A stretch of 64,000 bases of DNA from Desmodesmus armatus (Eukaryota; Chlorophyta; Chlorophyceae; Sphaeropleales; Scenedesmaceae), in NCBI GenBank assembly GCA_007449985.2, contig VIIQ02000193.1, positions 1 to 64,000 of the forward strand, read 5' to 3'. The position numbers were made by a program, and so were the translations under genes. The notes beneath the pieces were generated by a model. The model was not told the DNA's origin. It did not search any database and saw only the letters and a program-made list of their open reading frames with translations. Shown here one piece after another: positions 2,493 to 63,340 of the stretch (position 1 is the stretch's first letter; each line of letters begins with the position of its first letter).

Positions 2493-3135
2493 GCTGGGGG
2501 AACATTTCAGCTCTCTGCTGCTGCTGAGTGTCTCAGCAGAGGTGATCTACCACTCGCACCGTGACTGTGTCCTGCGACGCTAAAAGGTAAAACAAGTGAA
2601 AGCGTATTCATTTACAAAAGTTCGACATTAGATGCTGTTGTTCTTATTTCATGCACGACCATGGACATGGATGCATGAACGGTGTACAGCCTGTCAAGCA
2701 AGTGGCATTGAGCAAATGTCTGTTGCACTAGACGTCGAACAAATGCTAGATTGAGGCATGCAGGTGGGATGGCTTGCGGATGGGTTGCTGAGTGTGCAGG
2801 GCCCTTGGAAGCTGTGAGAGGGAACATTCTTCCATGCTGGCAGCGAAATGATGATGAAGCTAGCGTGTTGAAACCCACTGCACACCACTCAGCTCAGATG
2901 CAGGCTTCTGGCAAAACATGTTGCACAGTGAGGCAAGTGACACAAAGCCCCAAACCATGCACACAAGGCCCAGTACATGCTTGGTCATAGACACACAAGC
3001 TATACTTTATAACATTTCATTGAGTGCGATTGGTACTCTTGCACTGACGGGTTGGGCAGCAGTCCCGTCAACCAGCACTGTGCACTTTGTCAAGCACTCT
3101 TCTTTCTTCTGCTGGGCACGAGGCCGTCAAAGGGG
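2493..3135. other. Intergenic, shared 5' region of a divergent gene pair
   Basis: No coding support on either strand. The ABC-F gene leaves to the left and the DA2-like gene to the right, so both promoters probably lie in these 643 bases. I see no convincing TATA box. Confidence 0.5.
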
Positions 3136-15269: not shown

Positions 15270-18200
15270 GGGGATGCAGCTGAGTGCCGAGACAGCGGCA
15301 ATGCTTGCTGCTGCTGCCGCCGCTGTTGCCTCCAGTAGGGCACTCACTGGAGCTCTGAGGGACTCACCAGGACCTGCTGCTGCTGCTGCTGGTGTCACTA
15401 GTGACACTGCTGCTGCAGCCGCCGCTGGTGTCACTAGTGACACTACGGCTGCTGCCGGTGTCACTAATGATACCACTGCTGCTGCACCTACAGCTGCTGA
15501 CTCCCAGGCAAGGTGCCAGCATTCAGGTGATGCAGCAAAGGGCGTGACAGCAGCAGCAGCAGCAGCAGCAGCAGAACAACCCTCAGCAGCAGCAGCAGCA
15601 GCAGAACAACCCTCAGCAGCAGCAGCAGAAGCAGAAGCAGCAGCAGCAGAAGGGGCTGATGTTTGGTGTGTGGGCTCCTCCCCTGTCAGTGTCGGAGAGG
15701 TGGCTGGTGGTGTGTGGGTGCGCGTGTTCACTGAGGAGTACAGGAGCAAGCGGGGGGACTACACACGACGGTTCCTGGCCGCATCCTATGCGGTGAGTAT
15801 AGGAGGGGAGGTGCCTGGGTGACAATGAGGGGATGACACTGAGGTTTTTGCCTGCAGTGCGCCCCGCACATCGCTTGGCGGTGTTGAAAGTGTGTGGTCT
15901 TGCCTGCCGTGCTACTTGGACTTGATGGAGTGTCAGGGAGGCACACAAACCTTATGCCAAACAACTTGTGACACGCCCTCCCCCCCTGCCCTCCCCACAC
16001 ACAACATGCTCACATGCCTCCGTTCATTGGCTCCCTTGCTCCCCCCCCCCTCCGCCTATCTTCCGCCTATCCCCTTCTTTGCAACAGGCCCTGTACTCCC
16101 GCCACCTGTCCACCCACCCCTCACAACGGCACCTATACGAAGTGATCACGGAGCGCAGCCCCTGCCATGCATACTTCGACCTAGAGTACAGCAGGGAGGC
16201 ACACAAACTTTCTGACACCCCCTCCCCCTTTTCCCTTACCCTTTCCACCCCGACATGCTCACATGCCCTCCTTTCTTGGTCCCCCCCCCTTGTTTGTGTC
16301 ACAGGCCCTGTACTCCCGCCACCTGTCCACCCATCCCTCACAACGACACCTATACGAAGTCATCACGGAGCGCTCCCCCTGCCATGTCTACTTCGACCTG
16401 GAGTACAGCAAAGAAGCCAACCCGGTGTGTGTGGAGACACGATGGTCAACCGACTGGTGGTTCTGCTGATGGGGCGTTCAGGCAGCGGTGGGGGCTGACA
16501 CTGCGCAAACAGGTGGGTGGGAGGGGGGGGGGGGCGGACAGTGTGTGGGTGTGGGTGGGGGTTGGGGGGGGGTGGGAGGGACGCAGAAAGGGATGTGTTG
16601 AAAATGCAATTGATGTGTGTGTGTTTGGGGGGGGGTAAGGGTTCTTGATGCCCCCTCCAAGCCTTGCTGTGGCTCCAAGTGCTCCCACAGTGGGTGGCGG
16701 AGCTCACGTGTGAACCCACCAGCCTTCACCTCCCTATGCAAGGTGCACCCTCACTCATGGCTGCATGTACCCCTTCCCCCCTCGTCTGTTGCCTTACTGT
16801 CATTGCTCTCCGCCTTTTGCCCATGCAGTGGGTGTTGGAGCTTGATTCCAGCACCCCCACCAAGTTCAGCCGCCACCTGATCGTGCGGGTGCCTGGCTGG
16901 GCCTTTGCCAGCAACGGGACGTGGGCGCATTCGTGCGCAGCATAACTACCAGCCCTGCAGGCCTCGAGTCCCTGTATGTGTTCAAGGACCCACCACCAAC
17001 AGCAGCAGCAGGGGCTGGACCAGCAGCAGCAGCAGCAGCAGCTGGATTATCATCAGGAGCAGGAGGAGGAGGAGGAGAGGGGCAGGATGGGGTGCCTGAC
17101 GATCCCCAGCAGCAGCAGCAGCACGAGAGGCAGCAGCAGCAGGAGCGGGAGCATCGGCAGCAGGAGCGGGACCGGCAGCGTGTGTGTTTTGTGGATGGTG
17201 CTGTGTACAGCCGCAACCGCCACTTCAGGCTGTTTGGCAGCACCAAGGGGGGCAAGGGGGCACGCCTGGAGCCGACCCTGCGCTACTGTATGTCTGCAGC
17301 ATGCAGGTGGGTGGGTTGATACATATGAACAGCATGTGTCCTCCATTGCTTGCTGGTGCGTCATCCCCCCAACTACACGCACGACCCATCCCATCTGCTG
17401 TTCTGTGCCCCTCGCCCTTCCTACCAAGGTGGCTTGCCTGCAGAAACTGGTGTTCCTCCTCTTGCTTTCTCACATGTCCCCCCCCCCCCCCAACACACAC
17501 AGAATACGATGGCTCCAATGCTGTCCTGTGCCCCCTGCGTCTTCGTCACCAACAATCCTGCCCACAGGAATGCGCTGCCTGTGCCGCAGCACAAGGTTAG
17601 TGTGCTGGGACTCATTTGCAATGTGGCAAACCTGCCCCCCCCCCCAACACACTCACGCCCGAGCGGCAGGCTGACGAATGCAACCTCTCTGCTGTTGTGT
17701 GCCTCTCCCTCTGTCTGCCTTGCCATGTGCTCACAGGAATGCGCTGCCTGTGCCGCAGCACAAGGACTGATCTGCAATGTGGCACCTGCTAGTACTAATC
17801 TGCAATGTAGCACCCCATGCATATCCCCCCCCCCTCTTACACACACATGTACAATTGTTGGTGGCTCCAAACTCTCCCCCGTTCCGTTGCCCTGGCCATG
17901 TCCCTCTGTGCGTGCAGGAATGCGCTGCCTGTGCCGCAGCACAAGGTGTTCCTGCTGGGCCTCATCTGCAATGTGGCACCAGGGACGCAGCTGCTCAGGG
18001 TGGACGGCGCACAGCAGCACCAGCAGCAGCAGGGAGGCGCAGGGGGCCGTGGCGGCGGCAGTGTCGGTGGTGGCGGTGGTGGTGGCGGCAGCGGTGGTGG
18101 CGGTGGTGGTTGTGATGAAGAAGTGATCGAGTGGACGGGGCAGGATGCAACGGGTAAGTGGGTGTTGCGGGAGCGAAGGGAGGGGGGGGGGTCAGCGATA

Positions 18201-20549: not shown

Positions 20550-20990
20550 GGCGGTTTGTGGCTGCAGCAGCAGCAGCAGCAGGTTGGCTGATCTGCCAGA
20601 AGTGCTACGACCCCGACTGCAGGGGGTTCAGGAGCCCCTGGGCACCTCTGCCGGGGGATGTGTGGCAGCAGCGGCGGCTGGAGGGGACGGCTGAAGCATG
20701 GTCACAGCAGCAGCAGCAGCAGCAGCAGGGTGCTGATGCTGAGGGGAGTGTGGCAGCAGGGGCTGCGGCAGCAGCAGCAGCAGCAGCAGGGCGCTGATGC
20801 TGACGGTTCTGGCAGCAGCGCGCGGCGGCAGCAGCTGCAGCAAATGAATTGGGCTGAAACATGGTCGTAGCAGCAGCAGCGGCAGCAGGATGCTGATGAT
20901 TGAGGGATTATGGCCGCTGCAGCAGTGGGCTGAGGCGTGGTGGCGGCAGCAGCCGCAGCAGGGCGCTGATGGTGAAATGGTCTGGCATCA
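20340..20990 (+). repeat. Duplicated zinc-knuckle exon and decayed copies at the PrimPol 3' end
   Basis: The segment coding for QKCYDPDCRGFRSPWAPLPG, the basic/acidic tail and poly-Gln (about 20,355-20,549) is repeated at about 20,590-20,800 (QKCYDPDC conserved, then GDVWQQRRLEG). Shorter decayed versions of the tail follow at about 20,850-20,990. The second copy lacks the upstream C/H half of the knuckle. Confidence 0.8.
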
Positions 20991-21738
20991 CCAGCTGCAT
21001 CACCGCTGCAGCGGCAGCAGTATGTCCCTTGCAGTGCCCTACTTGTACTCTTCCGCAAGAACCCCTTACATGTACTGTGTTATGTACGCAACCCACCATG
21101 TTCGTTCCTTCCAAAAAACGGCTTCATGAACGGGGCAAACACCAGCCAAGATGCAAGCTGCATGCGGTCCACTTGCCGCATGCAGTGCTTGCAGGCCTGT
21201 GCTATAACATAAAGTGAGTTGGCATTGGGTGCAGGTTCAATCGTAGTTGGCAGTTTGGAAATGCTTGAACACTGCCAGTGCAAGTCCGTCTGTAGGTTAG
21301 TCACCAGCAGTGCCTCTGCCCGCCACGGGAAAGAACTTCACTATCATGGATGAACTTGCAGTTCAGTCATACATAGACAATGTAAAACACTATCGAATAG
21401 TGTGCGTGCTAGTGTGCCAGGCATGTTTCCAATTTTGGTGGAATCCAGCACAGGCACTTGGTGGGCCTGAAAACCGAGATCTGAGACTTTGAAACCAATG
21501 TAAGAACATCTATGGATAGCTTTCCAGTTCAGCACACGGGCAGCAGTTTTGGTGGTTACAGATGTGGCAGCATTTTGGTCGAAGTCGTCGAGATGGGACT
21601 GCCACTGCACTTAAACTATTGGCGTACATGTCTAGATGTTACTGTGAAGCGTGCGGGGGGCCTGGCTCATGCCTCCGGGTCACAACCAAAATAGTAGCAC
21701 CCCTGCCTGTCAGTCACACGCCACACGCGTTTTGACCG
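20991..21738. other. Intergenic, no gene seen
   Basis: No coding signal beyond short chance frames. It separates the PrimPol repeats from secreted gene A. Confidence 0.45.
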
Positions 21739-21760
21739 AGCCAGGATAAAAGTCCTGGCG
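21739..21760 (+). promoter_or_regulatory. TATA-like element in a short palindrome upstream of secreted gene A
   Basis: GCCAGGATAAAAGTCCTGGC has a TAAAAG core flanked by 7-bp inverted arms, about 70-85 bases before the proposed ATG. Position and sequence suit a core promoter. Inference only. Confidence 0.35.
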
Positions 21761-21825
21761 TGCTAGGTGGACATCAAATCACGTCCACGTTCACTTTGAT
21801 ACCGCTTCAAACAAACATTCACACC

Positions 21826-22613
21826 ATGGCCTGGCGCGGGCTGCTTATCTGTTTAGGCTTGCTGTTTCTGTCGCTGACAGTATGTGCGCAAGGCGAGGCT
21901 TTGGCAACCAGCAGCGGCCTGCTGCAGTCTATCCTTGATGCGGATGAGCCAGCTCCTATCCCCGCTGAGCCAGCATCTTACGAGGACGACAAAGTGGAGC
22001 TGCGCTGGACAGACCAGCGGCAATCTGTCCTGACGACTGGAGTTTTGTTTTTGACAACGACAACTTCGAGTTTACAGACATTGTCGACTACATCCAACCT
22101 GATTTCTTTGTGTAAGTTGCACTTGACTTGCTGCTGTGTACAAGTGAAAGCTGACGTTGACGTTTCCGTTGGCAACAAAATAGCATGGCGATTGCGTTGC
22201 ACAGAGCCTGAGTCATCAATGTGGTCTTATTTCTCTGGGTAGGCCAATACCGTAGAAGGCCTTTAGTACGCCTTACCTGGCACTCCTGTTTGCAGCAGTG
22301 CAGTACTGTAACCCGCAGGTGTGTTGGGTTGCTGCTTGCAAGCTAGGGGTCCATCACAAACCTCTACCAGGGGGAAGACACCGGGTTTGCTTGTACCCCC
22401 CCCCCCGTATCCGTTTCAGGCTTTCTGACTCACGGACCCCTACCCCCCTGTCAGTTTTAGGCTGTCGTGAGGTACCGTACTGTACCAACGGTTGCTCTCC
22501 CGTATGGCCAGGCTGCTGGACCCCTACACCCCCCCCCCCTTGATGTTTTGAGCTGATTGTTGTGGGTGATTCCCCCCCCCCCCCCCCCTCTCGAGATCAG
22601 GGTTGGCGTCCCC

Positions 22614-32996: not shown

Positions 32997-33020
32997 GCAA
33001 AGGAGCCTCATCAGGCAGGA

Positions 33021-35150
33021 GTGGGTCTAGGCCCCCACGTAAGTGCCAGCCTTTGGCTTCCTGTCTGTACACCCTGGTGGCTTCTTGCATGCAACCTAGG
33101 GTGGGCACACATTGTAGTGTGCTGTGTCTCCTGTGTTCCTCTCTCTTTTGTGGCGATGGTGGTCCCCCCCTCCCACCCCTTTCCTTGTGATACACCCTTG
33201 CCCCAGCGCTTGGGTCGGTGCGCCAGTCATTGGCGCGCCATCGGGGCCTCCCCCACAGTCGTTTCTTGGTTGCAGCATGGTGTGCCTGTGGAGTGGCGGG
33301 GGGGCCGTCCCCCACCCCCCTTCTACAAGAAACCCCTGCCGTCTACTCATTCTCAGCGGCAGTGGTGGTTGCACACAGAGGCTCCTCGTTTTGTGAAGCT
33401 TGGGGTGTTAACACAGTTGGACGCCCGGCCTGACCACTGTTCTAATGCCTTTTGCGTGCCTAAAGGGGAGACCTGGCGGTTAGTTGTCAACCTGAAGCAC
33501 AGCAACAAGTTTAATGTTGCTCACAAGTGCCGTTTTGAGACGCTGCGTATGTTGCAGCGCTACGACCTTGCCAATGCTTGGGCGGTGAAAGCGGACATGC
33601 AGGACGCTTTCTACCAGGTGCCTTTGCACCCTTCTGCGCGTGACTACTTTTGTTTTGAGTTTGCTAGTTGCTATTACAGGATCAATTGCCTCCCCTTTGG
33701 CTGGAACAATTCTCCCTATTATTTCACCAAGGTTACGCGCCCCTTTGTTGCCCACCTGCGCGCTCCTTTCCACACCCCGGTTCCCCCTGGCTGCATGTAC
33801 CCCTCCCCCTCTGGAGGCTTGGCACGCACAGGGTGTCGTGTGCTGCCATACTTGGACGATTTTCTTTTCTTGTTCCCTGACCCTGAGAGTGCGGCTGCTG
33901 GTGCTCAGTGGATCCTGTCCCTGATGTACTGGCTTGGTTTCACACCGCACCCAAAGAAGTCAGTTTGGCAGCCGTGTCAGCAGTTGGAGCACCTAGGGCT
34001 CACTGTCGACCTGGCGGCTGGCACCTTTGCCGTCCCCCCTGCCAAAGTGGCCAGGCTGGCTCGCCTGGCCAAGGGCCTCATTGTTTCAGCCAAGCTGAAC
34101 AAGCGCTTGGTGCCCAAGCGCGACCTGGCGTCTTTCTGTGGTTATGCTCAGTCTGTTCGGTTGGCTGTCATGCCTGCCAATTTGTTCTTGCGTGCTCTGT
34201 ACGATGATTGCAGCAGTGTCAAGGGTTGGGGCGGCGATGTGCGCCTCTCCCGGCAGTCTTTCAGGGACCTTGAGTGGTGGTGTCAGATCCCTGAGCAGCA
34301 CCTAGTCTCTCCTATCAGGTTGAGGCCTGCTGCCATCGACTTGTTTGTAGATGCTTCTGACCTGGGCTGGGGCGCTGTGATTCCCGACCTTGCTGAAAGC
34401 CCTGATTCAGTAGCTTCTGGTCGTTGGTCTGTTGAGGAACAATGTATGCACATCAACCAGAAGGAAATGCGCGCTGTGCGCTATGCCTTGCTGTCCTACG
34501 CGCCACTGGTACGAGACAGGGTTGTGCGATTGTTTGAAGACAATACTGTTACGCAGAGTGTTTTGGGTAGGTTTGCCTCGCGTTCAGCAGCACTTATGGC
34601 TGAGTATCGTCTGCTGTGGGCGGTGCTGGACAGCCTGCATGTGCACCTTCAGGTTGTCCGGGTCTCCTCTGAGTCCAATCTGGCTGACGCCCCGTCCCGC
34701 TTTGTGGACCATGGGGATTTCCAGTTGCACCCGCGCATCTTTTGCGCCCTCAACACCCTGTGGGGCCCTCACACCCTAGACCTGTTTGCTGCTGACAGTA
34801 ACACACAGCTGCCGCTGTTCTTCAGCATGCACCGCTGCCCAGGCAGCTCTGGCGCGAATGCATTCCTGCAACCTTGGCATGGGCACAATGCCTACGCCTG
34901 CCCGCCCTTCAACAGCAGTGTCTTGCTGCAGCTAGCTCAGAAGGTGCGGGAGGACCGTGCTACTGTCACTGTGGTGGTTCCTTGTTGGCCTGCTCAGCCG
35001 TGGTTTCACGAGTTGATGTTGATGGCTAAAGACAGCATGTACCTGCCAAATGCCACCTTCATTGCAGGCCCTTCTGGGCAGGCCCACCTGCCCAGCCAGC
35101 ATTGGCGGATTATGGCTATCAGGATTGAGCACGGTGGCTTTGGCTTGTAG
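33021..35150 (+). CDS. Reverse transcriptase-RNase H of a DIRS-like retrotransposon
   Basis: An open frame of 709 codons without breaks. The first ATG is near 33,156; the true start may be there. RT: WRLVVNLKHSN, VKADMQDAFYQVPLHP, INCLPFGWNNSPYYF and the catalytic LPYLDDFLFLF (about 33,840-33,875), then GFTPHPKKSVW. RNase H: DLFVDASDLGWGAVI (about 34,340), INQKEMRAV, EDNT and ADAPSR. The C-terminal region (GPHTLDLFAADSN, NAFLQPWHGHNAYACPPFN, VVVPCWPAQPWF) is the module that follows RNase H in DIRS-type elements. No integrase or protease is fused. Codon use and the clean frame contrast with the fragments to its right. Confidence 0.9.
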   Translation: MGLGPHVSASLWLPVCTPWWLLACNLGWAHIVVCCVSCVPLSFVAMVVPPSHPFPCDTPLPQRLGRCASHWRAIGASPTVVSWLQHGVPVEWRGGRPPPPFYKKPLPSTHSQRQWWLHTEAPRFVKLGVLTQLDARPDHCSNAFCVPKGETWRLVVNLKHSNKFNVAHKCRFETLRMLQRYDLANAWAVKADMQDAFYQVPLHPSARDYFCFEFASCYYRINCLPFGWNNSPYYFTKVTRPFVAHLRAPFHTPVPPGCMYPSPSGGLARTGCRVLPYLDDFLFLFPDPESAAAGAQWILSLMYWLGFTPHPKKSVWQPCQQLEHLGLTVDLAAGTFAVPPAKVARLARLAKGLIVSAKLNKRLVPKRDLASFCGYAQSVRLAVMPANLFLRALYDDCSSVKGWGGDVRLSRQSFRDLEWWCQIPEQHLVSPIRLRPAAIDLFVDASDLGWGAVIPDLAESPDSVASGRWSVEEQCMHINQKEMRAVRYALLSYAPLVRDRVVRLFEDNTVTQSVLGRFASRSAALMAEYRLLWAVLDSLHVHLQVVRVSSESNLADAPSRFVDHGDFQLHPRIFCALNTLWGPHTLDLFAADSNTQLPLFFSMHRCPGSSGANAFLQPWHGHNAYACPPFNSSVLLQLAQKVREDRATVTVVVPCWPAQPWFHELMLMAKDSMYLPNATFIAGPSGQAHLPSQHWRIMAIRIEHGGFGL

Positions 35151-42814: not shown

Positions 42815-43531
42815 ATGAGGCAAGCTGCTGCTGACGCAACTGTGCCGCCCTCAACTGTTCCGCTGCAGTTGAACCTGACAGCCACTGTGCCGCCCTCAAC
42901 TGTTCCGCTGCAGTTGAACCTGACAGCCACTGTGCCGCCCTCAACTGTTCCGCTGCAGTTGAACCTGACAGCCACTGTGCCGCCCTCAACTGTTCCGCTG
43001 CAGTTGAACCTGACAGCCACTGTGCCGCCCTCAACTGTTCCGCTGCAGTTGAACCTGACAGCCACTGTGCCGCCCTCAACTGTTCCGCTGCAGTTGAACC
43101 TGACAGCCACTGTGCCGCCCTCAACTGTTCCGCTGCAGTTGAACCTGACAGCCACTGTGCCGCCCTCAACTGTTCCGCTGCAGTTGAACCTGACAGCCAC
43201 TGTGCCGCCCTCAACTGTTCCGCTGCAGTTGAACCTGACAGCCACTGTGCCGCCCTCAACTGTTCCGCTGCAGTTGAACCTGACAGCCACTGTGCCGCCC
43301 TCAACTGTTCCGCTGCAGTTGAACCTGACAGCCACTGTGCCGCCCTCAACTGTTCCGCTGCAGTTGAACCTGACAGCCAAGCTGACGGTCAGCTTGGACC
43401 CGCAGAGACTCTTCAGCTATCTGTACGGTCAGCCAGGCAGTCCGGAGGCAGCAGCCACCCTGGCGGCCACAGAGCCCCCAACTCCCCCAGCAGCAGCGCT
43501 GCAGCAGCAGCCTGCGCCTGCGCTCGACTGA
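42815..43531 (+). CDS. Hypothetical ORF built on a 12-unit, 15-residue repeat
   Basis: An open frame of 238 codons: a short lead, then TVPPSTVPLQLNLTA twelve times, then KLTVSLDPQRLFSYLYGQ and an Ala/Pro/Gln tail. The minus strand is also open across the repeat in two frames, so openness alone is weak evidence of coding. It sits between a knuckle and a protease fragment and may be an expanded linker of a retroelement polyprotein. Confidence 0.3.
   Translation: MRQAAADATVPPSTVPLQLNLTATVPPSTVPLQLNLTATVPPSTVPLQLNLTATVPPSTVPLQLNLTATVPPSTVPLQLNLTATVPPSTVPLQLNLTATVPPSTVPLQLNLTATVPPSTVPLQLNLTATVPPSTVPLQLNLTATVPPSTVPLQLNLTATVPPSTVPLQLNLTATVPPSTVPLQLNLTAKLTVSLDPQRLFSYLYGQPGSPEAAATLAATEPPTPPAAALQQQPAPALD
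42839..43378. repeat. Twelve perfect 45-bp tandem repeats
   Basis: 540 bases, all units identical by eye. Unit begins ACTGTGCCGCCCTCAACTGT. Divisible by three, so reading frames pass through in both strands. Perfect identity suggests recent expansion, or a collapsed/expanded assembly region. Confidence 0.95.
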
Positions 43532-45472: not shown

Positions 45473-46164
45473 GTAGTACACAGGCCATGTCTAGACATTT
45501 CAGGCAGTGACGCCTGTCAGCACAAGCCTGACACACGCACAGCCACTCATGCCACACATGCCTTCCTCTGTGACGCACCTGCTGACTGCAGGCCTCACAA
45601 AACACCTGGGCGGCACTGGCAAAGTGAATGTTTTCGTGGCAACTTAGACCTGATGAGCCTTGTGAAAGACGACACTAGTCGTCTGTATGTTTTTACACAA
45701 CACACGAACACTACATGCCTGCTGTCTGGGTCGCTGGAATCCTGTCTGTTCTACCACCGCTGATGCTCAGGCCAGCAAGCCACCCCCCATCGAAGCATAC
45801 TGCCCAGACGGTGAGTCGGAAGGAAAGCATGTTGGTGATCGGTGGGAAGTAGACCCCGCGCATTTGTCATCATCATCATCATGGGGGCCAGACCTCTTCC
45901 CAACAGCAGCAGAGGTCCCATGTCTACCCTGGCAGCTCATTCAAGCTGTTGGCAATTGAGATCCCAGTCATCTACACACTTTGAATCACTACTGCTTGCT
46001 GCTGCTGCTGCTGCTGCTGCTGCACGGTGGCTGGTAGCCCTTGCCGGGAATGGCGACTGGCTGGATGAAGACGGCAAAGAGCAGGACTCCTGCTCTGGGA
46101 GGCGGGCAGCAGTCCTGCGAGGGGCAGCAGCTGGCGACAAGACAAATGCAGCAGCAGCCCCCCG

Positions 46165-46315
46165 CCCCTTCCCAACACCCACAGGTGGTACAGATGCGCG
46201 CCATTTACCCCGTGGGAGGTGTGGCAGCAGCGGCGGCTGGAAGAGACGGCCGAGGCATGGTCGCAGCAGCAGCAGCCTGAGCCTGCTGAGCAGGGTGCTG
46301 ATGTTGAGGGGAGTA

Positions 46316-46349
<34 letters not shown>

Positions 46350-46370
46350 TGGGGAAGGTGGTTGGATGAG
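46165..46370 (+). pseudogene. Chimeric PrimPol fragment
   Basis: An intron end plus the start of the PrimPol exon at 19,880 (CCCACAG ... GCGCCATTTACCCCGTGGG) is joined directly, inside a CC(C)GTGGG/CCGGGGG microhomology, to the tail of the last exon (AGGTGTGGCAGCAGC, GGCTGGAAGAGACGGCCGAG, then CAG run and CTGATGTTGAGGGGAGTATG). The ~500 bases that separate these parts in PrimPol are absent. The intron acceptor is kept, so it is not a retrocopy. Confidence 0.75.
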
Positions 46371-47535
46371 ACTGTGGTGGTCTCAGCTGCTGCAACTCAA
46401 ACAAGTGACACCATGCCAGTACAAGTCAATGCCCACTGGAGGTTTCACATCCCACTCGTACAATGTGCAACAGCCGTGATGCCGCATCACGTGACAGTGA
46501 CAGCAAAGGGTGGGGCTTTGGGTGGGTGTTTCGTGCTGGTCGTCCTGTTTAACAATGTGCATTGAGGCAGGAAGATCACCACAGCACTGTTCCATTTCAG
46601 CTAACTCGCCCCCCTCCCCTCCCACCCAGCAGTCACAGCCCCCCCCCCCCCCCCCCCCCCAGCAGGATTGCCTTGGGCCCCACCCCCTGAGGCCCTTTTG
46701 TGCAAAGATTCGGATGCCCCACGGGGTGGGGCGTCTGATTCTTGCCAAGAATCCACAGTGAGGAATGCCTTCCCCCCCTTGCTACAAAGACTCCCTGTGT
46801 CAGTTACAAGTAAAATCTACCCTTACGACACCTCACTGCACCCACAGAGTCAGCCCCATACCAGGCCAAGCTGAAGGATCCATACCAAAATAGGGGAGGG
46901 GCACCCCCATATGCTTTGTGGAGGTTCCCATCAAGAAAGGGCCACAGCTGAGCTCTTGCAAGAGGCTTTGAAGCTAGGAGAAGGTCAAAGCTATGATTGA
47001 GCACAGGATTGTCCCATTCCCAGTGACTGGCTGGCATCATGGGCGCTTGATCTTCATAGCTACAGATGTAACTTATGTTTCTCTTGATTCACAGAGCATA
47101 CTATGAGAGGGACAGGAGTCCAAGGCCCTCCTGCTGTTGAACAAGTTGTTGTTGTAATAGGCAGAGACATTACTAACACATTGGCTCTTCCGTGCATTCC
47201 TAGCAGGAGCAAGTTGTAGGTAGCAGCCGGGAGACATTGACTACATGATGCGCTTTGCGTATGCGCGCTTGCAAGGGGTGGTGCCTGGCAATGGCAGCAA
47301 TGGCAGGGTGGTCCGCACCACGTAAAACTCACGACAATACACTGAAAGTGACGCTGAACGATGCATGTGATTGGTTGTGGGACTCTGCTGCTCCTCTAGA
47401 GGCCTTTCCGTACGTCTTCTAGTGTATTTCCGTACGTAACGCGGGTTTGAACAAGCTCAGCCAGAACAAAGTCGTGGGTGTTGCACTGACGAGCTCATCT
47501 CTAGTTGCTGCAGTTAACCAAGGCAAAGAATCACC
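46371..47535. other. Intergenic before gene C
   Basis: Contains a long C run (46,630-46,650) and a minus-strand copy of the 25,573 dispersed repeat (47,015-47,075). No gene seen. Confidence 0.4.
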
Positions 47536-50850: not shown

Positions 50851-52473
50851 TACATTACAATTAATTAATTAATTAATTAGTATTATTTCATCACTGCACT
50901 GGCAGTATGTTTCACTGTCTCAGGACAGCACTGGACTGCAAAATCACAGTCGCACCAGCCTTCAGGAGACAGTTGTCCTTGATGCACTCTCAAACACCAA
51001 GTTGGCATGCGCAGCAGCAGACACAACAGCTTCAGCCTCTGCGATCTTACTACAACACAGCAGCAGCACTCACGCCGCCCAGCCTGCTTGAGCAGATACC
51101 TTTGACATGCCTCTAGATTTTCTCACATCTGCCTGTACGGTAGGCCTCAACCAGGGAAAGCATTATCATAGTACTACTTCTTTTCTTTGGCAGACATGGC
51201 AGCTTCAGCCTCTGCGATTTTACTACAACATAGTAGGAATAGGAGGCCCATAAGTGCCCAGCCTGGGCAGTGCTCTCTCAGTCTCTGCTCTGACCTGCAG
51301 TCGTACCTGAAGAGACACTGTCTCTCTGGCAGCTAGCGTGCTCGCTGTCAGTGACCAGCCAAAGTAAGCAGTAAACCAACTTGGCGCTGAGCGCTGCTGC
51401 TAGCAGCCTGCCTCGGTCAGTGTCAGCAGCAGCAACGCCCTTGCCCTGCAGGGCTGTGACTGCTACTGACTGTAAGAGATAGTAGTAAGAGATAGTAGCT
51501 GCTTGTGTCAATTCTGTTATCCAGTAGGGTAGGATGCGAGCCCTAGGGTGTGCGCACTGTGCAGCATCCGCATGCTATGGTTGTAGTCGGCTGCGACATC
51601 TCCTCTTCCAACCCTTTACAGACAAAGCGCTTGCTGCAACCTTCTTGGCAAGGGCTTTGTCATAATAACAAATGATGAGACGATCTTATGATATCAGCAG
51701 CTGCTTGCTTGGCTTATATTGGTGGCAGAATCCCTAACAGCAGACGTGCATTCAGATCTGCAGCATCTGCTGTGTGATCACCACACTGATGCACTGCGCA
51801 GTACACACTAGTAGTGTGCTAGCACAGCGCTGCTGTAACGCTGTGCGCTGTAAATGTAAGTAACGCTGTACTACTTTACTTTGAGGTGTCATCAACAGTT
51901 CTTGAACTCCAGCAATTGGCTTTCACAGACCCCCGAAACCATGAAAGGCACGCCTGGTACCTTCATACTGCAGCTGCTCTACCTGTTGCAAGTACTGCTG
52001 AGTGTGTGTACTGCTGAGTACATGTACTAGTACTGAGTACATGTACTAGTACTGCACAGTACTGTGTTGCCCCTGGTTGGCAAATGCTGGGCAGAGGCAG
52101 CACAGTTGCATATTGGCTGGCGAGCCATATGCTCACATTTGGAAATCAAAAGGCCGACTGAATGCACACGTTGGAGAGCAAAGTATGATGGTCCCCATTC
52201 TAGGAGTGTTTTGTAATGAGTGTAAACATTATGTGGGTGACAACATCAGACACCCGCCCAAAACGCACCATTTGGCTGTAGTTGCAACCCGTCACCCATT
52301 GCTTGCATCCTTGCAGCCATCCGATGGCTTATGAGAAGTCTCCGTACAGATGTACACAGAAACATCGTGACAATCCTGTCGGACAACAAAGACCAGCGCG
52401 GCTAATAAGACAGCAAGACCTGGAACGATTTGCTCAAACCCATCTGTCTCTAAGCGTGTTAGCATCATCAAGC
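50851..52473. other. Intergenic before gene D
   Basis: Holds an (AATT)n microsatellite (50,859-50,879) and two tandem 19-bp palindromic units GAGTACATGTACTAGTACT (about 52,016-52,053). No coding support. TTTGGCTGTAGTTGCAACCC and similar proximal sequence may be promoter; no clear TATA box. Confidence 0.4.
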
Positions 52474-54670
52474 ATGTCGAGGCTGCTGCTATTTTCAGGT
52501 GTCCTCTTCCTGTCGCTGACAGTATGCGTGCAAGGAAAAAACACCGACGTGTTGCAGTCGTTCCTGCATCGTGAGCCAGCATCTGTCCCTGTGGAGCCAG
52601 CATATGCAGACGAAGAGATGGTGCAGCTGTGCTTTGAGGAATCGGCGCTGTGCCCAGAGTTTGCTTTTGAGGATTTCGTCTTTGACGACAACTTTGTGTG
52701 AGTTTCATTTGGTTCTGCTGTTCAGGCAGTCAGCATACCGTTTCTTACGGCAGCGCACGTTTCGACTTCTCTGCTCAGTTCACTGGAAGGAGCAGCAATT
52801 GCAAGGGTTAATCTTCACTGACCCATATTGCTGTCAAAAGCTGTCAACCCTTGAAACTGTTCTTAACTAGTAGCAGAAGGGGTTTGGTGTGACAGGAGCA
52901 GCAGGCATGCATGCACATACAGTACGTGTGGTAATGGTGCTGGCCAGCTCTGCAGATAACGAGTTATGGCGCGCTGTCAAGCTATGATACCAGGGTGCCC
53001 TTGCTGTATTTTGCTTCAGTCAATCAGAAAACACATATTGCTCTTATCACATGCTGTCTGAACCTCTGTTTTTCACTGCCCCTCTCTGTCCTGCCTATCT
53101 CCCCCCCCCCCCCCCCCCAAATGCAGGTCTGATTTCGCTGCCCTGTAAAAGATGATGGCAAGCATCGTGAATTCCTGGCCGAGCAGTCCCAAGCCGTGGG
53201 ATTCTGCACCATGAGGAACCCATCAGTCCCCTTGCCATTCCCCTTCACCATCCTCACAGACCTTATCGAGCCGCTCGACGTGTTTGCCCAGGGGCTCCCT
53301 ATGCCATCCTCCAGCACTGGCAAGAAGTTCAACTTCAAGTTCGAGGGTGCATGGTAAGCTCACCACTTCCGACACTTGACATGAAAAAATGTGTGGCATG
53401 CTGTTATCACTAATTACAATTACAGCACCCTGTTAAAACAGCGTGCAGCTCTGCCTGAAACTCTGCAGCCTGAGAGGGTCTCAGACATTCAGTGTCAGAA
53501 TGAGTGTGGCAGCTTGAAATTGTATTTGAAACGGCCAGAGTGGCGGTCACCACCCACTAACACCGCCCTGTTGCCCCCCCCCCCCCCCACCCCCACAGTG
53601 TACTCAAGAGCGGTGATCACGACTGCGACATGGGAGGCCTGGAGGGCACAGTGCTGGACGTCTCGGGACTCACAGTCATGGCTCAGGTGTGTCTAAGGTT
53701 TAGGGTTTAGGGTTAGGGTTTAGGGTTGCGGGACTCACAGTCACGGCTCAGGTGTGTCAAAACCAAATCAAAGTTGCACCTGCAGCTATGAAGCTCAAGA
53801 GCTCATGCCAGCCATTCACTGCTATCCCTGGGGCGTGAGTGGAGCTGCGAGTGCCATTGCCTTCGAGCATGCATGTGATGAGCCCTCCTCAGGCAGGCTG
53901 CCGCGAATGCCATTGCCTGAGTCTTCGAGCATGCACTGCATCCGTGATGAGCAGTCCTCAACTGGCGTGAAGCTAATGCGAGAGATCCTGTGATGTTACA
54001 GTACCGTACTTGAAGGGGGTGTACTCAGTGATATCTTTCTTTCTTTTTCCTTTCACAGGACGTCATCATCGACAGGGACCCCAGGACCCTGCCCGCCCTT
54101 CGGTGCGCGGGCCAGAGTGCGGGCGAATACAACCTTGGGCTCCTCGAAACTCTCCTAGACGGGCTCCGTAAGGGTGCTGGTGCAGACAACCGGGCATCCA
54201 ACTCCTCTTCCTCCGAAGAGGACCTCCAAGCCATCCCCCGCAAGTGGCTCGACCTCATGCGCGAGCGCAGCGCAGCCCGCCGGAGCAACAGAATGAAGAA
54301 GACCGCTAGCCCTAGCGCCACCGCTGCTGCGAAGAACGGAGCTCGCCACGGCTCCCACGGCGCACGTCACAACGGCGACAGCATGGCCACCCCTCGCACC
54401 TACTACAAGGGCCCTGCCAAGATCTTCTCTGGAATGGCATATGCCAACGATCCAAACGGCAAGGGCGTCATCGCTGCTGGGACCTTCCAGTATGTTCGTC
54501 CAGAGTACATACCGGCAGACGAGTTTCTGGAAGAGTTTGGTTTCGAGATCATCACCTCGCTGCCTGAGCACGAGCATGTGTACACCCCCTTCCAGTACAA
54601 GTTCAGGCTGAAGCCCAGCGAGAAGAAAGAGGAGGCGTACCAAGGCTACAGCGGCCAGCTCGGCCAGTGA
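52474..54670 (+). CDS. Secreted protein family, paralogue D (most diverged)
   Basis: Exons 52474-52697, 53127-53353, 53599-53686 and 54059-54670. The family's exon 3 is split by an extra phase-0 intron between GLTVMAQ and DVIIDRDP. Signal peptide MSRLLLFSGVLFLSLTVCVQ, then EPASVPVEPAYADEE. Exon 2 (RCPVKDDGKH, AVGFCTM, FNFKFEGAC) needs one added base near 53,136, giving 384 codons in total. The linker differs: it has a Ser/Glu-rich part (SNSSSSEEDLQAI) before a basic part (RERSAARRSNRMKK). The C-terminal domain is conserved (TYYKGPAKIFSGMAYANDP, GKGVIAAGTFQYVRPEY, FEIITS, HVYTPFQYKFRLKP). The extra intron contains a copy of the exon end separated from it by TTTAGGG repeats, and the gene's last 70 bases are copied downstream. 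Confidence 0.75.
53665..53760 (+). repeat. Exon-end copy separated by telomere-type repeats
   Basis: CGGGACTCACAGTCATGGCT plus CAGGTGTGTC (exon 3 end with donor, 53,663-53,692) is repeated at 53,728-53,757 with one change. Between them lies AGGTTTAGGGTTTAGGGTTA-type sequence (53,696-53,727), i.e. TTTAGGG repeats. Confidence 0.9.
53757..53830 (+). repeat. Dispersed repeat family copy in gene D intron 3
   Basis: Starts directly at the end of the copied exon edge (AACCAAATCAAAGTTGCACC, then CTATGAAGCTCAAGAGCTCA). Same family as 25,573. Confidence 0.6.
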
Positions 54671-57669: not shown

Positions 57670-58694
57670 TCACTTCTTGTACACTTTGCCCAACCACGCC
57701 AACAATGCCTCGTTTGCTTCCTCCGGCGTATCGTCATGTGGGCAGTGGCCTGACTGCAGCCGCACACGATCAGCCTCAGGGTACAGCTGCTGAATACGGT
57801 CAGCCTGCACATGTACACGGCAAACAGATAGGGCTTAGGGTTGGGGCGCAGGTTTACTAAGTTCATAGCCTGACTGCAGCCGCACACAATCAGCCTCTGG
57901 GTACAGCTGCTGGATGCGGTCAGCCTGCACATGTACAGGACAGGGCAAGGGGGTTTTGACATGGCAGGGCAGGGCAGGGGGTTTAGGGTTCACCCTATTC
58001 ATGGCCTGACTGCAGCCGCACATGATCAGCCTCGGGGTACAGCTGCTGAATGCGATCGGCCTGCACATGTACACGGCAAACACATGGGGTTTAGGTTAGG
58101 GTTGTCGGTTTAGGGTTTACCCTGTTCATTCAGACTGCAGCCGCACACAATCAGCTGCTGGGTACAGTTGCTGAATCTGCCTGTACACGGCAGAAAGATA
58201 GGTAATGTGTTGGCAGATCCACCAACTTCAAGATGCCCCCAAACGGTCACCCTCCCATTCACCCCCCAGTGCGAGCCACCTGCATCCATTGCTACTGGGC
58301 CGTGAATACAGTAACCCCTTTGCTGCTGCAGTTGTTCGCCGCAAAGTGCACTTCGCAAACCGCTTGCTGCGCATCCACCTGCACAGACTAGCTGCCTTTC
58401 TGCCCACAGCAAAAACTAATGCCCCATCAAGCATGGGGCTTTGCCCACAAAACAAAAACATACCATACCAGAGTGTGAGGTTATGAGCTTACCCTTTTTG
58501 GTGTGATCCACGGATCCAAGTCACCCCACAGCAGCAGCAGCGGCAGCTTTGACCCCCGCATCTGCTTCAGCAGCGTATTGACAGAGGCTGAGGGCTGCCT
58601 GTTGCTGCTGTTGATGCGGAAGAACACCTCAGCAGCTGAGGGGTCACTGGCAGGCACCACAATGCTGTCGACCAAGTCCTCGTCAATAGTGTCT

Positions 58695-58726
<32 letters not shown>

Positions 58727-58818
58727 GGTGAGCAACAGCTGAGTGTAAGCGAGCAGCAGCTGAGGGGTCACTGGCAGGAACCACAATGCTGTTGACTAGA
58801 TCCTCGTCAATAGTGTCT

Positions 58819-58856
<38 letters not shown>

Positions 58857-58941
58857 GTTGATGCGGAAGAACACCTCAGCAGCTGAGGGGTCACTGGCAG
58901 GCACCACGATGCTGTCGACTAAGTCCTCATCGATGGTGTCT

Positions 58942-58991
<50 letters not shown>

Positions 58992-59094
58992 GGGTTTTCT
59001 TGAAGTGAGCAACAGCTGAGTTAAGGAAGCAGCAGCTGAGGGGTCACTGGCTGGTACCACAATACTGTCAACGAGATCCTCGTCAATAGTGTCT

Positions 59095-59141
<47 letters not shown>

Positions 59142-59305
59142 GGTTGTTGTGGTAGTTCTCAGCTTTCCGCTCATGCAAGTCTGCAGCAGCAGCAGCAGCA
59201 GCAGCAGCCAAGCAGTTGCCAGCTGGCAGCACAGTGCTGGCCACTCAACCATTGGCTCAAAGCTACAGCGGTGGCAGCAGCGGCCGCCACCAGCATTACC
59301 ACCAC

Positions 59306-59352
<47 letters not shown>

Positions 59353-59570
59353 AAGAGCTCACCATTGGATGAGTAGACCATCTGTAGCACCTCCTTGATC
59401 CTCTCAGGCTGCTTGGCGCGCTGGAAGGCAAAGTACAGCACCACTCGCTTGGCCAGATTAGTCATGCTGTCCTGGATGCCGGCATACCAGGGCACAGGGA
59501 GGGGCTCTGCCAGCTCGGGGCTGTCACTGTCTTGCAGGGGACCAGCTGAGTTGAGCAGCGCAACACCCCT

Positions 59571-59625
<55 letters not shown>

Positions 59626-59795
59626 TTGAGCAGCGCCACCCCTGCAACGGAATGGTGATGCAATGTGGTTTTGGGGGGTGGGGGTGGGGGTGGGGGTGAG
59701 GAGTCAGCATACCAGGGCACAGGGAGGGGCTCTGCCAGCTCGGGGCTGTCGGTGTCTTGCAGGGGACCAGCTGAGTTGAGCAGCGCAACACCCCT

Positions 59796-59844
<49 letters not shown>

Positions 59845-60561
59845 TTGAGCAGCACCACCCCTGCAACGGAATGGTGATGCAATGTGGTTTTGGGGGTGGG
59901 GGTGGGGGTGAGGAGTCAGCATACCAGGGCACAGGGAGGGGCTCTGCCAGCTCGGGGCTGTCGGTGTCTTGCAGGGGACCAGCTGAGTTGAGCAGCGCAA
60001 CACCCCTGCAGCAGCAGCAGCAGCAGCAGCAGCAATTGAGCAGCACCACCCCTGCAACGGAATGGTGATGCAATGTGGTTTTGGGGGGTGGGGGTGGGGG
60101 TGAGGAGTCAGCATACCAGGGCACTGGCAGGGGCTCTGCTAGCTCGGGGCTGTCGGTGTCTTGCAGAGGACCAGCTGAGTTGAGCAGCGCAACACCCCTG
60201 CAGCAGCAGCAGCAGCAGCAGCAATTGAGCAGCGCCACACCCCTGCAACGGAATGGTGGAAGCAACGTGGTTGGGGGGGGGGGGTGGGGGTGGGGTTGGG
60301 GGTGAAGGGTCAGCATACCAGGGCACAGGCAGGGGCTCTGCTAGCTCGGGACTGTCAGTGTCTTGCAGGGGACTAGCTGAGTTGAGCAGCGCAACGCCCC
60401 TGCAGCAGAATGGAAGAGATATGGGTGATGTGTGTGTGTGTGGGGGGGGGGGGGGGGGGGGGGGAGTCAGCACGACAGCAGGGCACTGGCAGGGGCTCTG
60501 CTAGCTCGGGGCTGTCAGTGTCTTGCAAGGGACCACCTGAGTTGAGCAGCGCAACACCCCT

Positions 60562-60607
<46 letters not shown>

Positions 60608-63340
60608 TTGAGCAGTGTCACAAAAGCCTCTACCTCCCTTGATGGCTGTTCAGCTTTTGCTGAGCCAACTTACCTTGATTGTACCTGTAAGTGGTTCAGG
60701 CATTGGCAAGCCTCAGCTGCAAGCCACAACCAAATGCTTGCAACAAGTCAAGGCCACAACATGATGGTCGCAGTGGCAAGACAGTACAGTACAGTGATTG
60801 GGGACACAATCCCAACCTTGGCACTAGCCAGCAAGCCAGGGGCTCTTGAGGGTGCCCATAGGTCCTACTTACCGAATCAGGTCTGGGTTCTTCACAGCTG
60901 CATTCATACACGCGTAGCCCCCCAAGCTGTTGCCGACAAGAACCACCTGCTCGTTCCTGCTGCTGCTGCTGCCGCCATTGCTGGTAGCACCACCGCGTAT
61001 CACTTGCTGTACAAAATCATCAATCTGCTGACCCCACAGCCCGCCGCTGCTGTATTCAACCAGGGCCTTCTCACTCCAGCCAAAACCCAAGAGGTCAAGG
61101 GCATAAACCCTGTAACCCTGCTGGGCGAGGGCGGGTATCTGGTAGCGCCAGTGGTAGGCTGAAGCGCCATAGCCGTGGATCAACAGCACGGGAGGCCCCT
61201 GCAGCAGCAGCAGCAGCAGCAACAGCGGCGGCGGCGGCGGCGGCAGCAGCAGCATCAGCCGCAGCAGTGGTGCAAAGTGACAGTCATATCATGTGCGGCA
61301 TGCTGAAGAAGGGAGTGCATCATATGTCAAGCCGTTGCCGGACAGAATCGGCTCCTGTGTAGCGGTAGCGGTATGCGAATGCCCCATAGGACTGCATGAC
61401 TCGATAGCACTTGGGGGCACAAAGGCATGGCGCAGAGTCAGGGGCATGTTGTGTACGCCGCTGTCCTGCATGAACCTGCGTGGAAATGAGCCCTGTGCCA
61501 TGTTTTGGCCACACCTGTGTCCCTGCTGTGCTCAACCGCCCCCACTCCTCCCCACTCCTCCCTCCTCCCAAATCGGTACCCTCCCCCCTCACATTACACC
61601 ACATCACCCCCCCCCCCCGCCCACGTGCCCTCTCACACCTGCGTCCCTGCCCAGATGTACCCGCCCCACCCTCCCCCACTCCTTCCCTCCTCCCACATCG
61701 GTACCCTGCCCCCTCACCTTACACCACATCCACCCCTCCCCCCCCCCCCCCCCCGCCCACGTGTCCCCTCACACCTGTGTCCCTGCTGTGATGTAATGCA
61801 CCTTGTGGCCCTGCCACTTCCAGAAGTTCCAACCTCCCCAACTCCTCCCTCCGCCCAAGTCGGTACGCTCCCCCCCCCTCACATTCCACCACATCCCCCC
61901 CCCCCCCCCCCCCCCCCCCCGCGCCCACGTGCCCCCTCACACCTGTGTCCCTGCGGTGATGTAATGCACCTTGTGGCCCTGCCACTCCCAGAAGTTCCAA
62001 CCTCCCCAACTCCTCCTTCCGCCCAAGTCGGTACGCTCCCCCCCCCCCCCTCACATTCCACCACATCCCCCCCCCCCCCCCCCCCGCCCACGTGCCCCCT
62101 CACACCTGTGTCCCTGCGGTGATGTAATGCACCTTGTGGCCCTGCCACTCCCAGAAGTTCCAACCTGCAAGGGCGCATTGACGTAGGCAGGCGGGTGTGA
62201 GTGTGATTGTGGGTGTGAGTGTGAAGTGAGGAATGCATGGCGTGTGCGCATGGGAGGTGCGTGTGAGGGAAGTGCGCGTAGACCCCCCGCTGCTGTGTGA
62301 GCAGATGCATGGCGCATGCGCATGGATGGGTGCTTGCATGCGTAGACCCCGCTGCTGTGTGAGTGAATGCATGGCGCATGCGCATGGATGGGTGCTTGAA
62401 TGCGCAGACCCCGCTGCTGTGTGAGCAGATGGCATGGCGCATGCGCATGGATGGGTACTTGCATGCGCAGACCCCTCTGCTGTGTGAGTGAATGCATGGC
62501 GCATGCGCATGCGCATGGATGGGTGCTTGCATGCGAGACCCCGCTGCTGTGTGAGTGAATGCATGGCACATGCGCATGGATGGGTGCTTGCATGCGCAGA
62601 CCCCGCTGCTGTGTGAGTGAATGCATGGCGCATGCGCATGGATGGGTGCTTGCATGCATAGGTGCGGCTGCTGTGTGTCAGTGACAAGACCACTCTGGGG
62701 AACCTAAGGCCAGCCCACCTCCTTTCTCATAGCGCACACGTGGCCGCCCCTGCTTGTCTGTCTCCACAGAAACATCCTGCGCACGAGGCATGTGCAGTTG
62801 AAAGCAAAGCATGCATTATCAGGGCTGCAGGCACGGTACGTGCAACTCTGTGTGGTATCGTGGTGTTGGAATCGTCTGGGGGTAACACAAGTCTGGTGGT
62901 AACACAAGTCTGGTGGTAACACAAAGTGTGTGCTGGCTGTCAGGAATCGTTGCTGACATGTACTGTCGACAGTACTTGCATCACCGCACGAAGTGCTGCC
63001 ATTGGCTGCAGCGCCGATGAATGCAGATACCTGTAAAGTACACTTCGTCACAAAACAAAGCACCATGCTGCTCAGCTCTCAATTGGCCTGCAACAACTGC
63101 CACTGTTGCTGTTGCTGTTCTCATACAGTATGCCATGGTAACATCCCTGCTCACCATTGCACTGGCAGGAGCCATGGGCAGGCTCGAAGCAGCAAGTCCA
63201 AGAATAGGAGCTGCTATTGCTGTCCTTCTGCTGAAATGAGCGGCGCAGGACCTCCCAGCTGCAGAACGAACGCGTGATACCTTTGCACCACAGAAAGGCC
63301 TCCCTGCTGTCCTGACGCTGGCAACAGTAGAGCTGTTCAT
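57670..63340 (-). CDS. Chloroplast alpha/beta hydrolase (Arabidopsis At4g36530-like)
   Basis: Seven exons, all phases matching, no frame break: 63340-63155, 62776-62719, 62164-62106, 61198-60873, 59568-59363, 58692-58493, 57804-57670; 1170 nt, 389 residues. The first exon is a bipartite plastid signal: a Ser/Arg/Ala-rich transit part, then SRRTAIAAPILGLAASSLPM and ending APASAM, like a thylakoid-lumen (Tat-type RR) peptide. Core: WNFWEWQGHKVHYITAGTQ, the oxyanion loop VLLIHGYGAS, YALDLLGFGWS, nucleophile elbow GNSLGG, GVALLNSAG, RAKQPERIKEVLQMVY, acid block LLWGDLDPW, and histidine block SGHCPHDDTPEEANEALL, giving a complete Ser-Asp-His triad. The order and wording follow At4g36530 closely; relatives include the chlorophyll dephytylase CLD1, but the substrate here is not known. 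Four exon starts are duplicated in the introns, and three acceptors directly follow CTG runs. Confidence 0.88.
57804..58190 (-). repeat. Copies of the last hydrolase exon start, with telomere-like spacers
   Basis: The functional start at 57,804 (ADRIQQLYPEADRVRLQSGH) has partial copies upstream in the transcript at 57,924, 58,060 and a diverged one near 58,178. Each runs to about RLQSGYE and then stops matching. Between copies lie GGGTTTAGGGTT-type sequences (57,832-57,842, 57,979-57,989, 58,086-58,119). Confidence 0.85.
58692..59100 (-). repeat. Four copies of the DTIDEDLVD exon start
   Basis: Copies start after CAG at 59,092, 58,939, 58,816 and 58,692. All encode DTIDEDLV(D/N)SIVVPASDPS. 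Each is preceded by a CTG run. Only the copy at 58,692 continues into LLKQMRGSKLPLLLLWGDLD. Confidence 0.9.
59568..60600 (-). repeat. Six copies of the GVALLNSAG exon start, each behind a CTG run
   Basis: Copies start at 60,559, 60,399, 60,197, 60,005, 59,793 and 59,568, spaced 160-225 bp. All encode GVALLNSA(G/S)PLQD(T/S)DSPEL through PWYA. Most units also carry a second, truncated start (CAGGGGTGGCGCTGCTCAAT) on the other side of the CTG run, so that the run appears to have grown between two acceptor copies. Only the 59,568 copy goes on to the full exon. Confidence 0.9.
61200..61265 (-). repeat. CTG/CCG tract forming the acceptor of hydrolase exon 4
   Basis: On the transcript strand the intron ends in GCTGCTGCTGCTGCTGCAG before GGGCCTCCC. 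The (CTG)n run replaces a normal pyrimidine tract. Confidence 0.7.
61775..62164 (-). repeat. Three copies of the WNFWEWQGHKVHYITAGTQ exon
   Basis: Complete 59-base copies at 62,106-62,164, 61,943-62,001 and 61,775-61,833 (period 163-168), all with the GTGTGAGG donor. Further donor-side remnants lie at about 61,638 and 61,515. Only the first has a strong acceptor (CCTTGCAG), so it is taken as the functional exon. Each copy is followed by a long G run on the transcript strand (C runs at 61,740, 61,890 and 62,070 on the plus strand). Confidence 0.88.
62225..62665. repeat. ~60-bp minisatellite with alternating GCATGC cores
   Basis: About seven units with GGCGCATGCGCATGGATGGG, TGCTTGCATGCG and GACCCCGCTGCTGTGTGAG, in intron 2 of the hydrolase gene. 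The alternating purine/pyrimidine GCATGCGCATGCGCATG core (62,500-62,518) could form Z-DNA. Confidence 0.85.

Follow-up and report, generated by a model that had tools for sequence, protein, structure and literature searches.

The window analyzed here comprises 64,000 nucleotides of Desmodesmus armatus (contig VIIQ02000193.1, positions 1 to 64,000) and harbors a PPH-like hydrolase gene in which several exon edges are accompanied by tandem copies. The gene lies on the minus strand and, as the preliminary description of this DNA had proposed, has an intact coding sequence of 389 codons (389 amino acids), built from seven exons with GT..AG introns and an unbroken reading frame. Exon 4 carries an Abhydrolase_1 match (E 3.4e-19), and the best relative among the matches listed is PPH1 of Chromochloris zofingiensis (65% identity, 79% query coverage). 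The best 120 of 3,410 relatives include many from green algae and also plant pheophytinases, which would place the host among the green algae, probably near Sphaeropleales. A search of the genome (one assembly, 115.8 Mb in 831 contigs) yields no second close copy of the gene; close exon matches are confined to this contig, and those on other contigs are 34 to 58% identical.

The exons and arrays of the gene are the following:

63155..63340, minus strand: exon 1 (start); no tandem copies found
62719..62776, minus strand: exon 2; no tandem copies found
62226..62684, minus strand: intron-only tandem array in intron 2, unit of ~62 bp, without an exon edge
62106..62164, minus strand: exon 3 (WNFWEWQ, 59 nt), acceptor TTGCAG; treated as the real copy
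61943..62001, minus strand: second complete copy of exon 3; coding sequence identical, AG before and GT after
61775..61833, minus strand: third copy of exon 3, also complete; differs by one synonymous change and by E to K
about 61619-61659, minus strand: degenerate fragment of exon 3 (exon end and donor)
60873..61198, minus strand: exon 4 (GPPVLLIHGYG); no tandem copies found
59482..60561, minus strand: exon 5 head array; five upstream heads at 60559, 60399, 60197, 60005, and 59793, real head at 59568
60242, 60051, 59860, and 59641, minus strand: four extra short acceptor copies of exon 5 (acceptor and first ~20 nt)
59363..59568, minus strand: exon 5 (GVALLNSAG), real
58609..59094, minus strand: exon 6 head array; copies start at 59092, 58939, and 58816, real head at 58692
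58493..58692, minus strand: exon 6 (DTIDEDLVD), real
57746..58202, minus strand: exon 7 head array; copies start at 58060 and 57924, a degenerate one near 58181, real head at 57804
57670..57804, minus strand: exon 7, the last (ADRIQQLYPE... to the stop), real

The edges of four of the seven exons (3, 5, 6, and 7), i.e., three of the five internal exons and the last one, are present as tandem copies. The preliminary description had every internal exon affected, which is too strong, since exons 2 and 4 lack arrays, as does exon 1; with simple repeats masked, no tandem array overlaps any of these three. Its copy numbers are borne out: the 59-base exon 3 occurs three times (plus the degenerate fragment), the start of exon 5 six times with the real one counted (plus the four short acceptor copies), and the starts of exons 6 and 7 four times each, the most upstream copy of exon 7 being degenerate. 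The measured repeat spacing of 120 to 225 bp likewise agrees with the period given there, and so does the near-identity of the coding sequence. The compared heads (57 to 80 nt) are 89 to 97% identical to the real edge, the extra copies of exon 3 differ from the first by 0 and 2 changes per 57 nt, and copies 1 and 2 of this exon encode the same peptide. Copies 4 and 5 of exon 5 have identical heads (compared without a tree). Four of the five arrays contain an exon edge, where random placement expects 3.75 (P=0.63); because of this, a targeting of exon edges is unnecessary to explain the arrays of the hydrolase gene. Telomere-like TTTAGGG/CCCTAAA tracts lie between the edge copies of exon 7 (57980-58120).

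The gene offers many extra predicted 3′ splice sites. AG directly precedes 14 of the 15 extra starts tested (nine for exon 5, three for exon 6, and two for exon 7); the one exception, the degenerate copy of exon 7, has CA at the coordinate used. Read-through of the 14 AG-bearing acceptors would give a truncated or out-of-frame product in 13 cases, and only the acceptor at 59793 keeps the frame, by inserting 75 amino acids, which matches the expectation of dead-end or inserted peptides in the preliminary description. Its further claim of exactly one complete copy per set fails for exon 3. Each of its three copies is a complete 59-nt exon flanked by AG upstream and GT downstream, and splicing in a single one, whichever it is, would lead to the full-length 389-amino-acid protein, the third with the E to K change. 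Two or three copies together break the frame.

The start of intron 4 (60872-60781, minus strand) is occupied by a dispersed element of about 92 bp that resembles a short interspersed nuclear element. A 21-base pattern taken from it has 67 matches genome-wide at two mismatches or fewer, this copy counted, and none in the control. An introner at this position is unsupported: in four of seven other aligned loci, the shared sequence continues upstream (gggtac) instead of starting at the splice site.

Recurrence in other genes

The same structure is found in five unrelated genes that can be named by homology, namely the hydrolase, a PrimPol-like gene, Aquarius, a NEK kinase, and pyruvate carboxylase, and in two of 10 blindly placed stretches; the preliminary description had suggested such a search. 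The PrimPol-like gene lies in the same window. Its name rests on a 30-amino-acid match to a DNA-directed primase/polymerase protein (E 6e-5), and none of its open frames has a Pfam match. It contains three sets of edge copies:

16088..16198, plus strand: upstream copy of the exon head ALYSRHLSTHPSQRHLYEVITERSPCHAYFDLEYSRE; real head starts at 16305
17569..17628, plus strand: upstream copy of the exon head NALPVPQHKV...; second, truncated copy at 17738, real head at 17919
20594..20766, plus strand: downstream copy of the last-exon segment CQKCYDPDCRGFRSPW; first copy at 20352-20524

Around 20310-20352 (plus strand), the PrimPol-like frame changes in a C run before CQKCYDPDC, through an error of the assembly or a genuine break. 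An open frame at 46069-46476 (plus strand) contains EVWQQRRLEETAEAWSQQQQ and resembles the PrimPol-like tail at 20.4 kb; it is possibly a dispersed duplicate.

Elsewhere in the genome, exon-edge copies occur in Aquarius (locus L027), and the NEK kinase gene (L059) has copies of both an exon head and an exon tail, the latter on the donor side. NEK is the sole one of five kinase loci with an array overlapping a kinase-profile exon. A kinase exon profile screen gave 151 matches, with 120 of 685 candidates scored, and is too insensitive for heads of 20 to 30 amino acids. The edge copies of pyruvate carboxylase (L061) share only 22 nt of exon. Among the 10 blindly placed 10-kb stretches (95 kb readable), the two with exon-edge copies by our reading are L055 and L061. 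The L055 copies sit in an open frame; Pfam names neither L055 nor L036, a further locus with donor-side copies. Either exon edge can thus be duplicated: on the donor side in L036 and the NEK exon tail, on the acceptor side in exons 5, 6, and 7 of the hydrolase gene, and on both sides in its exon 3. L023 (189-1230) contains an exon-like block, VLMNPEDGSRQEMPMNKSG, repeated in tandem at least four times, mostly with AG before and GT after. Extrapolated from two cases, the genome-wide total would be a few thousand edge arrays, which is a very rough figure.

Counting every kind of tandem array, the window has a high density, 4.2 per 10 kb; the random stretches reach 1.7 and the kinase loci 1.0. 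A drive by simple repeats was considered for these arrays and rejected, as their overlap with such repeats is close to expectation in the window (14 of 27, 13.6 expected), the random loci (5 of 16, 3.5 expected), and the kinase loci (2 of 4, 1.9 expected).

Codon-level divergence of the copies

For the comparison at the codon level, each copy is aligned to the working edge and read in the frame of the latter, and one copy is paired with the real edge in each of 13 sets. The most diverged intact copy is chosen, and NEK contributes two sets (head and tail). In L023 the last copy in order serves as the reference and is the presumed real one. The main pooled count omits the degenerate copies of exons 7 and 3, the truncated PrimPol-like copy at 17738, the 22-nt head of pyruvate carboxylase, and L036 1346/1607; the two degenerate hydrolase copies are restored in a second version of the test. 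When a copy decays freely and the working edge accepts silent change only, the ratio of nonsynonymous to synonymous divergence (pN/pS) is expected near 0.5 or more. We argue that this bound of about 0.5 holds in a single lineage whatever is duplicated or deleted, since two copies present together are never both the working one.

The pooled sets show a silent-site bias. They contain 49 synonymous and 23 nonsynonymous differences, which correspond to a pN/pS of 0.14 (kappa 1) or 0.18 (kappa 3), and 48 of these 72 differences fall on third codon positions. The variable columns are distributed over the three codon positions as 2, 1, and 11 among all head copies of exon 6 and as 2, 3, and 8 among those of exon 5. 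Against the null of an idle copy (pN/pS 0.5), the 13 sets give p=1.6e-7 or 2.1e-5 at kappa 1 or 3; when the two degenerate copies take the place of intact ones, p=1.6e-6 or 1.5e-4. The nine sets that come from nucleotide repeats in named genes give p=2.6e-4 or 0.0042, and 0.0016 or 0.018 with degenerate copies included. For the intact copies of the hydrolase alone, the values are p=0.0022 or 0.0095. A loss of codon bias in the copies is not significant (p=0.43).

The copies also keep their splice signal and have few gaps in their heads. AG is retained in 17 of 17 acceptor-side copies examined (the degenerate copy of exon 7 is not included). Per 100 aligned bases, gap openings number 0.24 in the heads, all three of them in one truncated PrimPol-like copy, and 4.77 in the upstream 70 bases, where simple repeats also occur. 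Taken together, the edge copies appear mostly to retain the protein code, and on evidence that is moderate overall they are hard to explain as idle junk. A paralogue as the source of the silent variants is rejected, as a close second copy was not found in the genome.

Origin of the arrays

The preliminary description knew of no process that repeats exon edges in this way. Tandem duplication of intron-exon boundaries is, however, known from amphioxus, where such repeats are called mirages (PMC3087553, PMC3902484). They occur in the globins BflGb6 and BflGb9, Adh3, TnC, and PGBD5 (PMC3087553, PMC3902484), with similar boundary duplications in lancelet PGBD5 (PMC3902484), and their copy number differs between haplotypes while clusters are homogenized internally (PMC3087553). 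The alga shares the minisatellite-like tandem repeats across the intron-exon boundary, at either exon edge, and the AG/GT splice signals in many copies. The unit sizes are ~150-160 bp in the amphioxus globins and 120-225 bp in the hydrolase. The concerted evolution within amphioxus clusters may have a counterpart in the identical heads 4 and 5 of exon 5 and in the upstream parts of two L055 copies, near-identical to the real one, both seen without a tree. The present case differs in its host, a green alga, in having at least five unrelated genes affected, and in the measured silent-site bias of its copies; normal splicing and haplotype length variation are results from amphioxus. The word "synonymous" is absent from the main text of the globin paper (PMC3087553). 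Among the literature matches listed (titles and starts of abstracts, with few subscription journals), neither arrays in green algae nor a codon-level test of mirage copies was found. The original observation is therefore real but overstated, and the process is already known from animals.

Other known systems fit less well. Mutually exclusive duplicated exons resemble exon 3, whose three copies are all complete, can replace one another in frame, and break the frame when two are used together, but the other hydrolase sets are partial edges, and copies 1 and 2 of exon 3 encode the same peptide. As a class they are rejected: complete in-frame copies exist only in the exon 3 set, and for exons 5 to 7 only one of 14 acceptors keeps the frame, by insertion. 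Decoy exons that promote intron retention, such as that of OGT, are single regulatory exons. They share with the arrays exon-like splice sites within an intron that are not meant for use, whereas the hydrolase arrays have multiple edge copies. Introners, the subject of PMC9860276, are likewise repeated sequences near splice sites of a eukaryotic genome, but they are dispersed through many genes, while the hydrolase arrays are confined to their locus and include the very exon of the host. Close copies of the hydrolase exons on this contig only do not fit the introner class.

We lean, with reservations, toward mirage-type minisatellites whose spare edges exchange sequence with working edges on diverged chromosomes. 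The arrays would start with a tandem duplication, by slippage or unequal exchange, of a unit that happens to span an intron-exon boundary. Such a duplication would be tolerated when the edge contiguous with the exon body still splices, and duplications within exons would presumably be selected away. Less certainly, the spare edges may then keep trading sequence with working edges on diverged homologues through unequal exchange or gene conversion. In a very diverse population, a spare edge would often be an old working allele that was recently put aside, which would explain the mainly silent changes, the kept frame, and the kept AG. Two copies at L055 are nearly identical to the real edge over the upstream 70 bases (70 and 69 positions agree), but their heads differ from it at four of 80 sites each, as patches of exchange would give. 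Simulations (one run per setting, N=100) favor exchange between haplotypes, because only these runs fall below a pN/pS of 0.5: values are 0.66 without exchange, 0.51 and 0.54 with exchange within one haplotype, and 0.31 and 0.28 (Nc=1) or 0.15 (Nc=2) with exchange between haplotypes.

Several points weigh against exchange between haplotypes. Scaled to the observed pS of ~0.2, the Nc=2 run would need a silent diversity of about 12-14%, which is very high. With degenerate copies included, the hydrolase alone gives p=0.024 or 0.075, so that the codon evidence, moderate overall, is weak for this gene and the hydrolase by itself cannot carry the claim of a silent bias. The last-exon copy of the PrimPol-like gene is without clear constraint (three synonymous and four nonsynonymous differences). 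Finally, conserved translation helped to draw attention to L055, L036, L023, and Aquarius, so these sets carry an ascertainment bias. In the case selection, 15 pairs were picked by eye from arrays; one was gapped and left unjudged, and six of the other 14 looked coding (three from L036, two from L023, and one from L027).

The strongest rival, which we nevertheless regard as rather unlikely, is that of plain neutral mirages, in which junk edges are tolerated and decay in place without exchange, the silent bias being an effect of small samples or case selection. It agrees with the chance frequency of exon edges in the arrays, the intron-only array of the hydrolase gene, the weak significance for this gene with degenerate copies, and the apparently neutral last-exon copy of the PrimPol-like gene. 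Degeneration is moreover strongest in the copy most distant from the real edge for hydrolase exons 3, 5, and 7, though not for exon 6. What it leaves unexplained is a pooled nonsynonymous fraction that lies under the neutral expectation in every version of the test, if not always significantly, together with the complete retention of AG and the few indels in the heads.

A direct use of some copies, spliced into mRNA as alternative or mutually exclusive edges and selected for the protein, would also account for the silent-site bias and the intact acceptors, and any single copy of exon 3 would indeed yield a full-length protein. We consider it distinctly improbable: of 14 acceptor copies tested, 13 would truncate the protein or lose the frame, a repeated segment was seen by eye in none of 11 homologues (P0049 stops before these exons), and amphioxus mirages splice normally by reverse transcription PCR (PMC3087553). 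Selection could also act indirectly, if contraction or conversion of an array moves a decayed copy into the working exon and such lineages are slowly weeded out. Codon bias and AG retention would follow, but a simulation of two-way conversion in one haplotype (Nc=1) gives 0.54, with no visible effect, and copies as old as a pS of 0.2 would imply slow turnover and hence weak selection, which makes this version very doubtful. An assembly artefact, by stutters or joined haplotypes at repeats, looks unlikely to the point of being hardly credible from the sequence: CTG or homopolymer runs are present in three of the four exon-edge arrays of the hydrolase gene and the PrimPol-like break in a C run suggests an imperfect consensus, but copies share internal junctions and still carry different substitutions, the pattern recurs in five homology-named genes, and arrays overall are not enriched for simple repeats.

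Exchange between haplotypes, the reading toward which we lean, has a bolder extension that we put forward only tentatively and think rather less likely true than false. Thousands of intron-exon boundaries may belong to active arrays through which chromosomes exchange exon edges, and introns would then serve as a reservoir of still-coding spare edges, an archive of former alleles able to return to service. What deserves further attention is the spread in the alga and the coding constraint. With two cases per 95 kb of blind sequence, the green-alga genome shows mirages as a recurring feature, beyond the few genes of amphioxus. The silent-site bias of mirage-like copies may be new, the cited mirage passages containing no measure of it; should it extend to the whole genome, it would suggest that exon copies in introns are exchanged or used. 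The arrays further provide natural test cases for spliceosome biology, in which as many as ten acceptors could compete for one exon, and natural material for models of intron gain via boundary duplication.

Other features of the window and of further loci

A retroelement open frame at 32997-35147 (plus strand) has a reverse transcriptase match; its RNase H-like and Dam methyltransferase matches are below curated cut-offs. Two open frames at 21736-22239 and 52282-52698 (plus strand) have a stretch in common that resembles a secretion signal, LFLSLTVC.QG; their products are possibly secreted paralogues. At 42831-43379, about 12 copies of a 45-bp unit (99% matches) lie inside an open frame (GTVEGGTVAVRFNCS repeats). 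Outside the window, locus L064 contains two cysteine-rich modules (QCGGKGAKC...) at 2494-2606 and 3048-3160, 554 bp apart, which we take to resemble cellulose-binding repeats.

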